Below are positions 51,217 to 64,000 of a DNA stretch of 64,000 bases, one piece after another. Both the position numbers and the translations under genes were made by a program. Position 1 is the first letter of the stretch. Every line of letters begins with the position of its first letter. Source of the DNA: Natronospira proteinivora (GTDB lineage: Bacteria > Pseudomonadota > Gammaproteobacteria > Natronospirales > Natronospiraceae); contig NZ_JALJYF010000002.1 in the NCBI RefSeq assembly GCF_024170465.1, positions 806,001-870,000 of the forward strand. The letters are read 5' to 3'. The notes beneath the pieces were generated by a model. The model was not told the DNA's origin, did no database searches, and saw only the letters and a program-made list of their open reading frames with translations.

Positions 51217-51696
51217 ATGATGGCAAGGACGCCTTTTATCCTTTTTTTGGCCGTATTTGTTATTGGATGTTCCAATAGAACTGACCCCCTTCAAGAACCC
51301 TCCCTGGCCGTTCCCGAAAACACCAGTAGTGAAGCGCCGTCACTGGATGATATCGAGCGTTGTATAATGGTCACGGCCGAATTGAACGGATGGTTGCCCG
51401 AACGCGGATCAGACCGGGGCAGACTGAAAGCGCAGCGCCATGTTCGTTCCCACCGCGCTTTCATTGACATATTTTATGACGAGGAATCGATTGACGTTCA
51501 ATATGCGGATAGCATCAACCTCAACTACGTTGATCGGCCTCCGAGGAGCGTTCGCCGTTACAAGGATATGAACTACACGGGCCCAGTGATCCATCCTATC
51601 TACAATCAATGGGTTGAAACTCTGAGCAACGATCTCGAAGTCCGGCTTAGACAGCCGGATTTTCTCTGTGAGCGCATGCAGGGTATACGCAACTAA
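51217..51696 (+). CDS. Lipoprotein of unknown function (paralogue 1)
   Basis: 159 aa, lipoprotein signal with FVIGC (Cys18). The mature part begins acidic and has DDIERCIMVTAELNGWLPE, RHVRSHRAFIDIFYD, YADSINLNY and a terminal IHPIYNQWVETLSNDLE. It shares this order of motifs with the next gene (IERC, GW, YD, DS-NL, a Y near the end followed by W), so the two are tandem paralogues. I do not recognise a named function. CGGAGA precedes ATG 51217. Confidence 0.75.
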   Translation: MMARTPFILFLAVFVIGCSNRTDPLQEPSLAVPENTSSEAPSLDDIERCIMVTAELNGWLPERGSDRGRLKAQRHVRSHRAFIDIFYDEESIDVQYADSINLNYVDRPPRSVRRYKDMNYTGPVIHPIYNQWVETLSNDLEVRLRQPDFLCERMQGIRN

Positions 51697-51742
51697 TCAG
51701 ATTCGAAATACAAGCATTGCGTCTGAACAAAAAGGGGAAACT

Positions 51743-52252
51743 ATGTCGTTCGCGGTTTCTGATAGAACTCGGAAAAAGGCTATTATTGCCTTGGTGGTTG
51801 TGCTTGGGATCGTCTTGGCAGCATGTACGCGTAATATGCGTCCGGTGGAAGACCAGTCCCAAAGCATGCCAGGTAACATTGAACAGGATGCGGCGCTTGC
51901 GGATATAGAGCGCTGCCTGGTATTGGCAGGAAGCTACCGGGGATGGGCCCGCCATCCTGCCAGCGATGAAGGCGACCTTCATCTGCGGAGATTGGAGCGC
52001 CATCATATGGCACACGTTAGGGTTGAATATGATTCGACCCAGTACCGCTTATCGTATGTGGACAGCGCGAACCTGCGTCATAGTGAGAATGAGCGGATTC
52101 TCTATGATCGTCAAAGAGATACCTTTACCGAATATGAAGGAGAGGTAATTAGTGTCCATTATTATAGGTGGACGGATTATCTCTTGGAGACAATGCATTC
52201 AGTACTTTCCCAGGGTCTGGACCATTGCGACACTGAGGCATCCGAGCATTAA
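51743..52252 (+). CDS. Lipoprotein of unknown function (paralogue 2)
   Basis: 169 aa, lipoprotein signal with GIVLAAC (Cys28). The mature part has LADIERCLVLAGSYRGWARH, then VRVEYDSTQYRLSYVDSANL and ISVHYYRWTDYLLETMHSVL. The match in motif order with the preceding gene is clear, identity moderate. Start ATG 51743 follows GGGGAAA; the longer frame from 51668 lies before the signal peptide. 46 bp separate the two genes, so they likely share a transcript. Confidence 0.75.
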   Translation: MSFAVSDRTRKKAIIALVVVLGIVLAACTRNMRPVEDQSQSMPGNIEQDAALADIERCLVLAGSYRGWARHPASDEGDLHLRRLERHHMAHVRVEYDSTQYRLSYVDSANLRHSENERILYDRQRDTFTEYEGEVISVHYYRWTDYLLETMHSVLSQGLDHCDTEASEH

Positions 52253-59290: not shown

Positions 59291-59494
59291 ATGCAGACCG
59301 GTACTGTGAAGTGGTTCAACGAGGCCAAGGGCTTCGGTTTCATCGCCCCCGAAGATGGTGGCAAGGATGTCTTCGTGCATTTCTCCGGTATCTCCGGCGA
59401 CGGGTTCAAGACCCTGCAGGAAGGCCAACAGGTTCAGTTCGAAACCAAGGAAGGCCCCAAGGGTCTTCAAGCCGTGGATGTCCAGGCACTCTGA
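59291..59494 (+). CDS. Cold-shock protein (CspA family)
   Basis: A 67-aa OB-fold protein, [20 protein letters not shown] with RNP1 KGFGFI and RNP2 VFVHFS. It binds single-stranded RNA/DNA and melts mRNA structure. GGAAGG before ATG 59291. Confidence 0.96.
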
Positions 59495-59559: not shown

Positions 59560-59720
59560 TTGTCTCTTTCAATCCCTCCCCAACTCTCCAATTATTGTGC
59601 CAACTCTAGGCACGATTTTCTTGACCCATGTTCCCTTAGAAACAATTTTGCCATGTCTAATAGGCCGAGCTTCCCACTTATCCTTTTAAATTTCTTCCAG
59701 GTTTTCACGTCCATATTTCC

Positions 59721-59748
59721 TTGACAAGGAAGGATGCATTGCTATCTT
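59721..59748 (+). promoter_or_regulatory. Promoter of the decayed lanthipeptide precursor
   Basis: TTGACA, 16-bp spacer, TATCTT. The stretch from -35 to -10 resembles that of the intact copy (60304-60331), with the same spacing and the shared TTGCTA. Confidence 0.7.
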
Positions 59749-59813
59749 TAATTAGAGTTAGTCGTTGTGGCCAATCACAATAATATTAATCACTAAAAGG
59801 TGGGAGTAAGACG

Positions 59814-60002
59814 TTGAAACTGAAGTTGAACAAATAAGAATTCGTGATTCTGTCCGACGATGCCGAAGTGCTAGGCAAGGAAATGATCCCCCAGGTTGGT
59901 GGTGGTAACTTCACGGATCACTGTGGACACGGCGATGATTGCCGCCCAACACTGGTCGCCGCTGAAACGTGTGGCTATTGGATCTGCCCGCCTGTTTTCT
60001 AA
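59814..60002 (+). pseudogene. Decayed class I lanthipeptide precursor (paralogue of 60389)
   Basis: A 63-codon frame homologous to the intact precursor. The start is TTG where the intact copy has ATG. Codon 8 is TAA (59835-59837) where the intact copy has GAA, a one-base change. Beyond it the leader is nearly unchanged (LSDDAEVLGKEMIPQVGGG) and several differences are silent. The core starts NFTDHC and ends ETCGYWICPPVF, with four Cys like the intact copy. So it was once a working gene and decayed recently, unless the stop is bypassed. A late GTG (59844) could restart translation but would lose the leader's KLKLNK part. Confidence 0.8.
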
Positions 60003-60011
60003 ATGGGCCAC

Positions 60012-60050
60012 AAATGAAGGTGAAGGACGCCCTCGGGGCTGCCTTCATTT
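60012..60050 (+). terminator. Weak terminator-like hairpin after the decayed precursor
   Basis: Outer stem AAATGAAGG / CCTTCATTT (9 bp) with an inner GCCC/GGGC hairpin, no T-run. It stands where the intact copy has its terminator. From 60051 to 60303 nothing else is recognisable; the last 70 bp are AT-rich. Confidence 0.5.
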
Positions 60051-60303: not shown

Positions 60304-60331
60304 TTGACACGGGAAGCTGCGTTGCTACGCT
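60304..60331 (+). promoter_or_regulatory. Promoter of the intact lanthipeptide precursor
   Basis: TTGACA, 16-bp spacer, TACGCT, about 58 bp before the start codon, preceded by an AT-rich tract ending in TTTTTTTTAGG, which could act as an UP element. Confidence 0.72.
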
Positions 60332-60388: not shown

Positions 60389-60583
60389 ATGAAACTGAAG
60401 CTGAACAAAGAAGAGCTGGTGACCCTGTCCGACGACGCCGAAGTGCTGGGCAAGGAAATGACCCCCCAAGTTGGTGGCGGTCAGGACACCCAGGTCTGTG
60501 TTGACTACAGCGAGCGCATTTGCCGCGTGACTTTGGCGCCCGGCGAGACCTGCGGCGTATGGACCTGCCCACCCGTACTATAA
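60389..60583 (+). CDS. Class I lanthipeptide precursor peptide
   Basis: 64 aa. Leader residues 1-31 (KLKLNKEELVTLSDDAEVLG, then KEMTPQVGGG) have the LNKxxL-like motif of class I leaders and end in a GG-type cleavage site. Core residues 32-64 hold Cys37, 45, 55, 60 and Thr34, Ser41, Thr48, Thr54, Thr59. Thr34-x-x-Cys37 is a canonical ring spacing, Ser41 to Cys45 is also plausible, and the end is ETCGVWTCPPVL. ATG 60389 has GGGAG 6 nt upstream; a longer frame from 60344 runs through this site and is rejected. LanC and LanB genes follow. Ring pattern, activity and final cut are not known. Confidence 0.85.
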   Translation: MKLKLNKEELVTLSDDAEVLGKEMTPQVGGGQDTQVCVDYSERICRVTLAPGETCGVWTCPPVL

Positions 60584-60595
60584 AAATGGGGTGAG

Positions 60596-60628
60596 AATGA
60601 GGGCAGCCCACCATGGGCTGCCCTCATT
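60596..60628 (+). terminator. Strong terminator/attenuator between precursor and lanC
   Basis: A perfect 15-bp stem AATGAGGGCAGCCCA / TGGGCTGCCCTCATT with a 3-nt loop, then TTCT. Partial read-through would give much precursor and less enzyme mRNA, as in other RiPP clusters. Confidence 0.9.
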
Positions 60629-60704
60629 TTCTAATTCGATATCGTACGTATTTCATTTGCTCTAATTTCTCAACTGTGCCTTTAAGCGCCCGAGGGCCAA
60701 AGCC

Positions 60705-61919
60705 TTGCACATCATGACCCAGTGCCAATTCAATCGCCTTGAGGCGATTGTTGCCGAGATTGTCCCGAACCTCCTGGAAGCACCCACTGACGAACCGATT
60801 GGCCTGATGAGCGGTCGGGCTGGCCATGCCCTTGCCGTTTGGTATGCCCGGCATTTCAATTCGGACTTGGTCGATGAAAATCAGTTTTCAGAAATGCTTT
60901 CCGAACTTCAGGGTGCTGTGCCTTACGTAAGCAAAGACCACCGATTTAGTAGGGGGTTACCCGGTGTCGCCTGGTTATTTGAATTGCTTCTCTGGGAGCA
61001 GGACGACCCCTATCTTGCAGAGTTCAACCAGAATGTTGACCGTATCCTGCTGAACTTACTCCAAGTCGAGTCGTGGCAAGGGGAAATTGAGCTGATGGAA
61101 GGCTTGAGTGGACTCGCACCTTATGCAGCCCGTCGCCTTAAGCAGGCGAATCAAACAGCCGTTTACAAGGAAATTATTCGTCATTTTTCCGATCTCGCGG
61201 TCTGGATTTTCCCCGATCAATGCACTTGGCCGAATCCGCCCAATTCGCCGTATAACATGAAATCCCAACCTGAGGAGCCGGAGCATAACCTGGGGCTCGC
61301 TCACGGTGTACCCGCTGTGCTTGCTGCATTGATCGCGCCTACCCAGCATAAAGATTTGAGCTCGGTGGCCAAACCGCTCCTGCAGGGAGGCGCCAACTGG
61401 CTAGCGGCTCAACGCCAGGACAGTGATGAACTTGAGTGCCACTATGGTTACCTGGCTGGAGAGCCCAGCCACTCGAGGCTTGGTTGGTGTTATGGCGATG
61501 CCAGTAACGCACTAATCTTGGCTCGCGCCGGGGCAGTTTTGAATGATAAAGCCTTGATCCAGGCAGCAAGAACCGTTGCCCTTCATGCCGCCAGCCGATC
61601 GCCCGAAGCCGGACTGGTAAGGGATGGTGGACTTTGCCATGGCAGCGCAGGCCTATCCCTTATCTTTTCCTTGCTGCACACTCTACTCGGTGACCCCGAG
61701 CTCCAGAACGCCGCCGAATTTTGGTTGGAAGATACCATTAAGCGCTATGAAAACCACGGCCTTAACGGCTTCGACGCCTATCGTTACGAACCGGAAAATG
61801 GCAAGCCTTATTTTGTCGCGGACACTGGGTTCCTGGCGGGCTATGCCGGAGTTGCCTTGGCATTGATGGCTGCAACCGAACAATCGCCGGATTGGGGCGA
61901 TTGTCTCCTGCTCCTCTAG
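60705..61919 (+). CDS. lanC: LanC-like lanthipeptide cyclase
   Basis: 404 aa, typical for LanC. Double-barrel motifs: an early GLPGVAW, the catalytic His in NLGLAHGVPAVLAAL (His200), zinc ligands Cys262 (GWCYGDAS) and Cys311-His312 (LCHGSAGLSLIF), and the C-terminal FLAGYAGVALAL. All residues known from the nisin cyclase (its His212, Cys284, Cys330, His331) are in place. It adds Cys thiols onto dehydrated Ser/Thr to form lanthionine rings. Start: TTG 60705 has GAGGG 8 nt upstream; ATG 60714 is possible but lacks a site. In this cluster lanC lies before lanB. Confidence 0.92.
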   Translation: MHIMTQCQFNRLEAIVAEIVPNLLEAPTDEPIGLMSGRAGHALAVWYARHFNSDLVDENQFSEMLSELQGAVPYVSKDHRFSRGLPGVAWLFELLLWEQDDPYLAEFNQNVDRILLNLLQVESWQGEIELMEGLSGLAPYAARRLKQANQTAVYKEIIRHFSDLAVWIFPDQCTWPNPPNSPYNMKSQPEEPEHNLGLAHGVPAVLAALIAPTQHKDLSSVAKPLLQGGANWLAAQRQDSDELECHYGYLAGEPSHSRLGWCYGDASNALILARAGAVLNDKALIQAARTVALHAASRSPEAGLVRDGGLCHGSAGLSLIFSLLHTLLGDPELQNAAEFWLEDTIKRYENHGLNGFDAYRYEPENGKPYFVADTGFLAGYAGVALALMAATEQSPDWGDCLLLL

Positions 61920-62107: not shown

Positions 62108-64000
62108 ATGGCACACCATCAGAACCTGCAGCCGGAAGAGTTTTTTGTTATTCGTACCCCCCGGTTACCTGTATCCGAACTGTCGCGCCTCCCAAAGGAT
62201 CCTCGCGAGCAACAAATATTCATCGAAGAGTGGCTGAAGGAGCCAGGGGTGGCTGAAGCGATCTACATTGCCAGTCCTTCATTGATGGCTAGGTTAGATC
62301 AGTGGCGGGCCAAGCCGACCGGGAAACAAGGCCGAAAGATTACGGAAAGCCTTGTCAAGTATTTCATTCGCATGACAACCAGGTCTACACCTTTTGGATT
62401 GTTTGCTGGAATTCAATTGGGGAATGTCAGTGACCAGACTCGCCTAACCATAGACCCTGGTCGTGTCGGTCGTCGTCATACACGCTTGGACATGTACTAC
62501 CTCGCAGGTGTACGGGATGGATTGAGCAAGGATGAGGAAAGCAAGTACAGCGTCCCATACAGGCCCAACCCAACATTGCATCAGGTTCACGACGCATTAC
62601 ACTATATCGAACCCTACCGGGGAAATGGAGGACGACAGTACCGCCTGAGTTCCGCTGCGGCCGAACCCCATTTGCTTGCCCTGCTGGGCAAGGCCCGGGC
62701 CGGCCTTAGCCAATCAGACTTGATTGATGCATTCCGTGCTGAATACCCGGAAGCCGAGCGGCATGAAGTGGACGAGTTCATCAATGAATTGATCAACGAA
62801 TCTCTGCTTCTACCCCATATTCCCTTGCCCTTGACCGGTAATTCTCCAGACCAGGCTTTCCTCCAGTCGCTGGATCGGCTCTCTGAGCAGGCCACGGCTG
62901 GTCCCATCCGAAAGGCGATTAAGCAGTTAAATAAGATTGATCAGGAGTTTGGTGTCGAACCACTTCGTTATCAAGCCGTCAAGGAGACCCTCGAGGCACT
63001 ACCCCACGAGGTTTCTGAAAATAAACTCTTCCAGGTCGATCTCTATCGCGAGCTTAAAGATTGCCAGCTGGATCGAGACCTGGCATCGAAAGTAGCAACT
63101 GTGATGACTCTGCTTGCTCAGCTTGGCCAAGAGCCGACAAACGAACTGGAGGAGTTTGTAAATCGTTTCAAGGCCCGATTTGAAGGGCAGATGATTCCAT
63201 TATCCCAGGTACTGAATGAGGAAGTTGGGATACCCGTGAGTACCGAAGGTGGCTATCAAAGCCAATTGTTGGCGGGCGTCCAATTGCCGAAGAAAGGACG
63301 GAATACCGTTTCATCTGCCACCACCTCCCCTTTGCAGGCCGAAATCATGCGGCGCCTCAGCTTGCCGGAAAATCATGGTATGGATGCAATCCATATTCCC
63401 CTTAAAGCACTGAAAAAAATGGCCGAAAAGCGAAAAGGGAATGAACCAGCTAGACTACCCGTGTCGTTTGCTGCATCCCTCAGCTTGTACAGGAAACGCC
63501 AAAGCGGACAGGCCATTGCCCATCTTAAAGGTGGCTATGGGCCGTCGGCCGCGAATCTGTTAGGGCGGTTCTGCCATTTAGATGAGCGATTGACACAGCG
63601 CGTCCGCGAACACCTGGAAAAGGAAGAAGCCCATTCGCCGGATGCAATATTTGCCGAGGTCGTCCATATGCCCGATGGGCGTCCCGGCAACGTCATTGCC
63701 CGCCCCATATTAAGGCCATATGAAATCGCCTTTCTAGGGGATTCCGGTGTGCCCGAGGAGAAACAGATCGGAATCGATGACCTTTATGTCTTCGTGGAAG
63801 ATGGAATCGTCAAGCTCTGGTCCAAGCGACATCACCGCCAGGTCGTGCCACGGCTCTCATCGGCACATAATTACAGCAGTAGAAGCCTGGGCATTTATAA
63901 GTTTCTTTGTATGTTACAAAATCAATCAGGGAAGGTCCCGGGATTTACACTTCCCGAGTCTCTGCGACAGAGCAGTTTCGTGCCGCGGATACTGCTCGGG
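62108..64000 (+). CDS. lanB: LanB-type lantibiotic dehydratase, N-terminal part (runs off the window)
   Basis: 631 codons open to the right edge without a stop. The N-terminal glutamylation domain has EFFVIRTPRLPVSEL at the start, the hallmark FIRMTTRSTPFGLFAG at residues 87-101, then RVGRRHTRLDMYYLAGV and KLFQVDLYRELKD. Class I LanB enzymes (about 1,000 aa) load glutamate from Glu-tRNA onto Ser/Thr and then eliminate it. The C-terminal elimination domain lies outside the window, so a split LanB cannot be excluded. AGGA lies 6 nt before ATG 62108. Confidence 0.92.
   Translation, partial: MAHHQNLQPEEFFVIRTPRLPVSELSRLPKDPREQQIFIEEWLKEPGVAEAIYIASPSLMARLDQWRAKPTGKQGRKITESLVKYFIRMTTRSTPFGLFAGIQLGNVSDQTRLTIDPGRVGRRHTRLDMYYLAGVRDGLSKDEESKYSVPYRPNPTLHQVHDALHYIEPYRGNGGRQYRLSSAAAEPHLLALLGKARAGLSQSDLIDAFRAEYPEAERHEVDEFINELINESLLLPHIPLPLTGNSPDQAFLQSLDRLSEQATAGPIRKAIKQLNKIDQEFGVEPLRYQAVKETLEALPHEVSENKLFQVDLYRELKDCQLDRDLASKVATVMTLLAQLGQEPTNELEEFVNRFKARFEGQMIPLSQVLNEEVGIPVSTEGGYQSQLLAGVQLPKKGRNTVSSATTSPLQAEIMRRLSLPENHGMDAIHIPLKALKKMAEKRKGNEPARLPVSFAASLSLYRKRQSGQAIAHLKGGYGPSAANLLGRFCHLDERLTQRVREHLEKEEAHSPDAIFAEVVHMPDGRPGNVIARPILRPYEIAFLGDSGVPEEKQIGIDDLYVFVEDGIVKLWSKRHHRQVVPRLSSAHNYSSRSLGIYKFLCMLQNQSGKVPGFTLPESLRQSSFVPRILLG

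Follow-up and report, generated by a model that had tools for sequence, protein, structure and literature searches.

Class I lanthipeptide precursors of Bacteroidetes carry an LxLxKx5L motif in a leader that ends in GG, and a gene for a C39 protease lies nearby (Walker et al. 2020, PMC7268733). In prochlorosin-type lanthipeptides, precursor pseudogenes created by an early stop or a frameshift have been described as common (PMC10027976). The locus considered here lies towards the end of the window (the whole 64,000-nucleotide stretch of DNA that was analysed) and can be compared with both. From the families of its proteins, its gene set—an intact lanA, lanC, lanB, an HlyD-type adaptor gene and an ABC exporter gene—is a class I lanthipeptide cluster. 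At its head, upstream of all of these genes, stands a second copy of lanA, hereafter the twin, which is interrupted by a stop codon. The features of the cluster given below are all on the forward strand.

The nearest cluster found is on a Spirosoma oryzicola plasmid (NZ_CP089546.1) that encodes six intact precursors. The two clusters share the leader motif, the GG end and the set of lanB, lanC, HlyD and C39-ABC genes, as well as multiple similar precursors with unlike cores and the positions of Cys37/55/60 and Ser/Thr59. The present cluster differs from the Bacteroidetes-type systems in lying in a non-Bacteroidetes genome and in its LanB, to which the nearest proteins found, on the Spirosoma plasmid and on a Cupriavidus plasmid, are about 31% identical. 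In contrast to the Spirosoma precursors, those described here have seven extra residues between the leader helix and the GG and end in CGxWxCPPV, and one of the two copies is very likely dead. The prochlorosin-type families likewise combine a conserved leader with unlike cores and lose copies through early stops or frameshifts (PMC10027976). However, the prochlorosin systems belong to class II (LanM), their leaders are of the Nif11/nitrile-hydratase-like type and their precursor genes are numerous and scattered, whereas the present cluster belongs to class I and has its two copies in tandem. In the Cupriavidus oxalaticus plasmid, an unannotated open reading frame (ORF) upstream of the LanB gene (L010:7625-7960) holds KLTLERETIRNL and then SLWTCPG; these resemble the motif in the leader and the WTCPP end of the precursor in the window, and the ORF is a possible precursor of the plasmid cluster.

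The intact lanA gene (60389–60583) encodes a 64-aa precursor, MKLKLNKEELVTLSDDAEVLGKEMTPQVGGG QDTQVCVDYSERICRVTLAPGETCGVWTCPPVL, followed by a stop codon. Its leader, MKLKLNKEELVTL...VGGG, fits the LxLxKx5L/GG signature letter by letter, with L3, L5, K7 and L13 and with GG at positions 30–31, and the sequence fits a leader followed by a core with Ser/Thr and Cys. It has no match among the Pfam and NCBIfam models. The lanC gene (60714–61919) encodes a LANC_like cyclase (PF05147, E = 1.5e-34) in which WCYG and CHG, which we take to be zinc-ligand motifs, can be found by eye. The full-length lanB gene starts at 62108 and runs past the end of the window at 64000 to genome position C2:871293; the dehydratase domains Lant_dehydr_N and Lant_dehydr_C (PF04738, E = 4.9e-127; PF14028, E = 2e-62) are on a single 1061-aa protein. 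It is followed by the HlyD-type adaptor gene and then by the gene for an ABC exporter with a C39 peptidase domain (PF03412, E = 1.4e-37). The lanC, lanB, HlyD and C39-ABC genes are all intact. Judged from these families and the leader motif, the intact copy would be translated and its precursor probably bound by LanB at the LxLxKE stretch of the leader and then dehydrated; with cyclization by LanC, the two enzymes would install (methyl)lanthionine rings. The C39-ABC exporter would then cut after the GG and export the product together with the HlyD protein.

The twin (59814–60002) is a full-length relative of this 64-codon gene. A search of the whole genome found exactly two precursor copies, the intact gene (E = 5.9e-41) and the twin, and no third; at E = 8.6e-21 genome-wide, the similarity of the twin to the intact copy is far beyond chance. 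Its frame reads (TTG)KLKLNK, stop, EFVILSDDAEVLGKEMIPQVGGG NFTDHCGHGDDCRPTLVAAETCGYWICPPVF, stop, and is open from the first stop to its own TAA at 60000–60002. The original prediction had described TTG in place of ATG and TAA in place of GAA at codon 8, and both can be read directly from the DNA; the nonsense codon, at 59835–59837, is a single base away from GAA. TTG is an accepted, if weak, start codon and by itself is no sign of decay. Also confirmed from the sequence were the retention of the leader frame and of all four core Cys, and the mostly silent or mild character of the leader differences: among codons 2–31, six differ only silently, three carry missense changes (L10F, T12I and T25I) and one is the nonsense codon. 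Aligned with the intact copy, the core shows a gap of two codons, and 15 of the 31 aligned residues are identical.

To place these lesions, we aligned the twin with the intact copy and the six Spirosoma precursors (n = 7 intact precursors). All seven share L3, L5, K7, E8, L13, GG and Cys 37, 55 and 60. Codon 8 is Glu in 7/7, which indicates that the TAA of the twin is derived. Position 59, as read from the alignment, is Ser or Thr in 7/7 and Ile in the twin; this Ile59, a feature that the original prediction did not mention, is probably a derived lesion as well. With Ser41 missing too, the twin has three Ser/Thr to pair with its four Cys, which is not enough to form four rings.

The duplicated unit takes in the promoter region, the GGGAGTAAGAC ribosome-binding site and the hairpin after the gene. 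The twin is preceded by a sigma-70-like promoter (59721–59748; TTGACA-16-TATCTT, with TG ahead of the −10 element), predicted from its match to the consensus, and by a GGGAG ribosome-binding site (59802–59806) identical to that of the intact copy. Alignment to the twin promoter reveals a promoter-like pair before the intact copy (60304–60331; TTGACA-16-TACGCT), which is under the threshold of the promoter scan; of the two pairs, only that of the twin passes. Promoter spacing, reported at the outset as kept, is so between the −35 and −10 elements (16 in both copies), but the distance from the −10 element to the start is about 8 nt longer in the twin. A hairpin 3′ of the twin (60018–60050; −17.9 kcal/mol, z = −1.4, weak tail) is the counterpart of the strong hairpin between lanA and lanC (60595–60630; −36.4 kcal/mol, z = −7.1), a probable partial terminator.

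These observations make it very likely that the twin is a tandem duplicate of lanA within the class I lanthipeptide cluster that was pseudogenized when a point mutation turned codon 8 into a stop, and its reading as a decayed gene is well supported. The TTG start, the codon-8 stop, Ile59 and a hairpin weaker than that of the intact gene all fit real decay. The twin may still be transcribed, yet it would yield only the seven-residue MKLKLNK, which would lack the likely LanB-binding motif, and presumably no further product. Against a dead gene, it can be argued that the frame is open apart from this stop and that the leader differences are largely silent, a pattern that would also be expected were the frame still read somehow.

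A sequencing or assembly error at the TAA would leave a strain with two working precursors of different cores. The change from GAA is a single base and the remaining frame is open, as such an error would predict. However, a substitution is involved and no long homopolymer surrounds it, the assembly consists of 4 contigs with 98% completeness, and the other odd features of the twin (TTG, Ile59 and the weaker hairpin) are consistent with real decay. We consider an error quite unlikely.

Re-initiation at GTG 59844, six bases past the TAA, would produce a 52-aa peptide (59844–60002) that keeps the GG export signal and lacks the LanB-binding motif LxLxKE, but we consider it very unlikely. An in-frame GTG does lie near the stop with an open frame from there, and leader codons 11–31 still have a low dN/dS (0.14, interval 0.02–0.67). 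Yet no good ribosome-binding site is seen at this GTG, which in the intact copy is simply the codon for Val11. The peptide would also miss L3, L5, K7 and E8, which are invariant in the compared relatives, and the twin core lacks a conserved ring-forming residue. The further step, in which the upstream copy would be live as a leader-shortened precursor made by re-initiation after codon 8, with an unmodified or differently handled peptide exported beside the lanthipeptide, is highly improbable.

Returning to the twin as a dead duplicate, we estimated the selection under which the two copies diverged. Pairwise dN/dS over leader codons 2–31 without codon 8 is 0.12 (interval 0.03–0.44), which suggests that much of the leader divergence arose under purifying selection. 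In the core, silent sites are saturated and dN/dS comes to about 0.2. At conserved residues, the density of silent differences is higher in the core (9/14) than in the leader (6/25; Fisher p = 0.019), and the contrast between leader and core is therefore partly a DNA-level one. A leader that is homogenized by recombination, constrained near the start, or both would in part explain this contrast as well as a fast core would. As for the original prediction of diversifying copies, dN/dS points to purifying selection in the leader, but positive selection in the core is not shown, since its silent sites are saturated and they, too, diverge more than those of the leader. That the twin is instead a silent cassette, whose core could recombine into the intact gene by way of the similar leaders, is hardly credible: leaders that resemble each other more closely than the cores do, silent sites included, are what sequence exchange between leaders would produce, but there is only a single silent copy, the genome is that of one strain, fewer silent changes near a start codon have ordinary causes (mRNA structure and codon choice), and the conserved ring residue is gone from the twin core.

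The time at which the dead duplicate lost its function was addressed with a likelihood model that allows a neutral phase of variable length on the branch of the twin. The likelihood is almost flat for neutral phases of 20–100% of this branch, with a drop of 1.46 log units at 100%; very short neutral phases are slightly disfavoured, which in part reflects the choice of a gene that carries a stop. Hence, of the original prediction that one copy was just lost, the loss stands, given the derived TAA, whereas 'just' is possible but not demonstrated, as almost any time after the duplication is allowed.

The cluster forms an island of low GC content, about 0.51 (0.47–0.54) against about 0.61 around it. 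It extends from window position 59600 to beyond 64000 (L002:5600-14731), and is flanked by a cold-shock gene on one side and an S9 peptidase gene on the other. Both of the other genomes from this genus lack the cluster at the matching site: in one (G002), the aldo/keto reductase, cold-shock and S9 peptidase genes are contiguous, and in the other (G001), the reductase, the cold-shock gene and the quinone oxidoreductase gene that lies beyond the peptidase are contiguous. Searches with the precursor and LanB found neither in these two genomes nor in the rest of the order (18 genomes besides the source). LanB had no match in 368 other sampled genomes of the class, none of 397 other genomes in the phylum sample contained PF14028, and precursor and LanB searches of the genome_contigs and viral_contigs sets gave no matches. 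The low GC content, the empty sites in the sister genomes and the lack of LanB in the order, class and phylum samples point to horizontal acquisition, and the cluster probably entered the source lineage by horizontal transfer. Within the class, the precursor gave two weak matches (E about 0.002), which are likely due to chance. A second sequence like the cold-shock gene (window 59292–59494) is present at L002:18440-18659, beyond the quinone oxidoreductase gene, with similar sequence in the sister genomes. Elsewhere in the window, the neighbouring ORFs 51217–51696 and 51668–52252 encode small lipoprotein-like proteins that are related and have a DDIERC/ADIERC...Y.DS.NL pattern in common; this pair (51217–52252) is perhaps a tandem duplication.

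Because precursor pseudogenes with early stops have been reported in the prochlorosin family (PMC10027976), the phenomenon itself is already known. The locus provides an example of a class I cluster with Bacteroidetes-type GG leaders, present as an island in a probably gammaproteobacterial genome, with one live and, very likely, one dead precursor. The pair would be a small natural record of precursor duplication, core drift and loss, and it leaves the existing understanding of that process unchanged.
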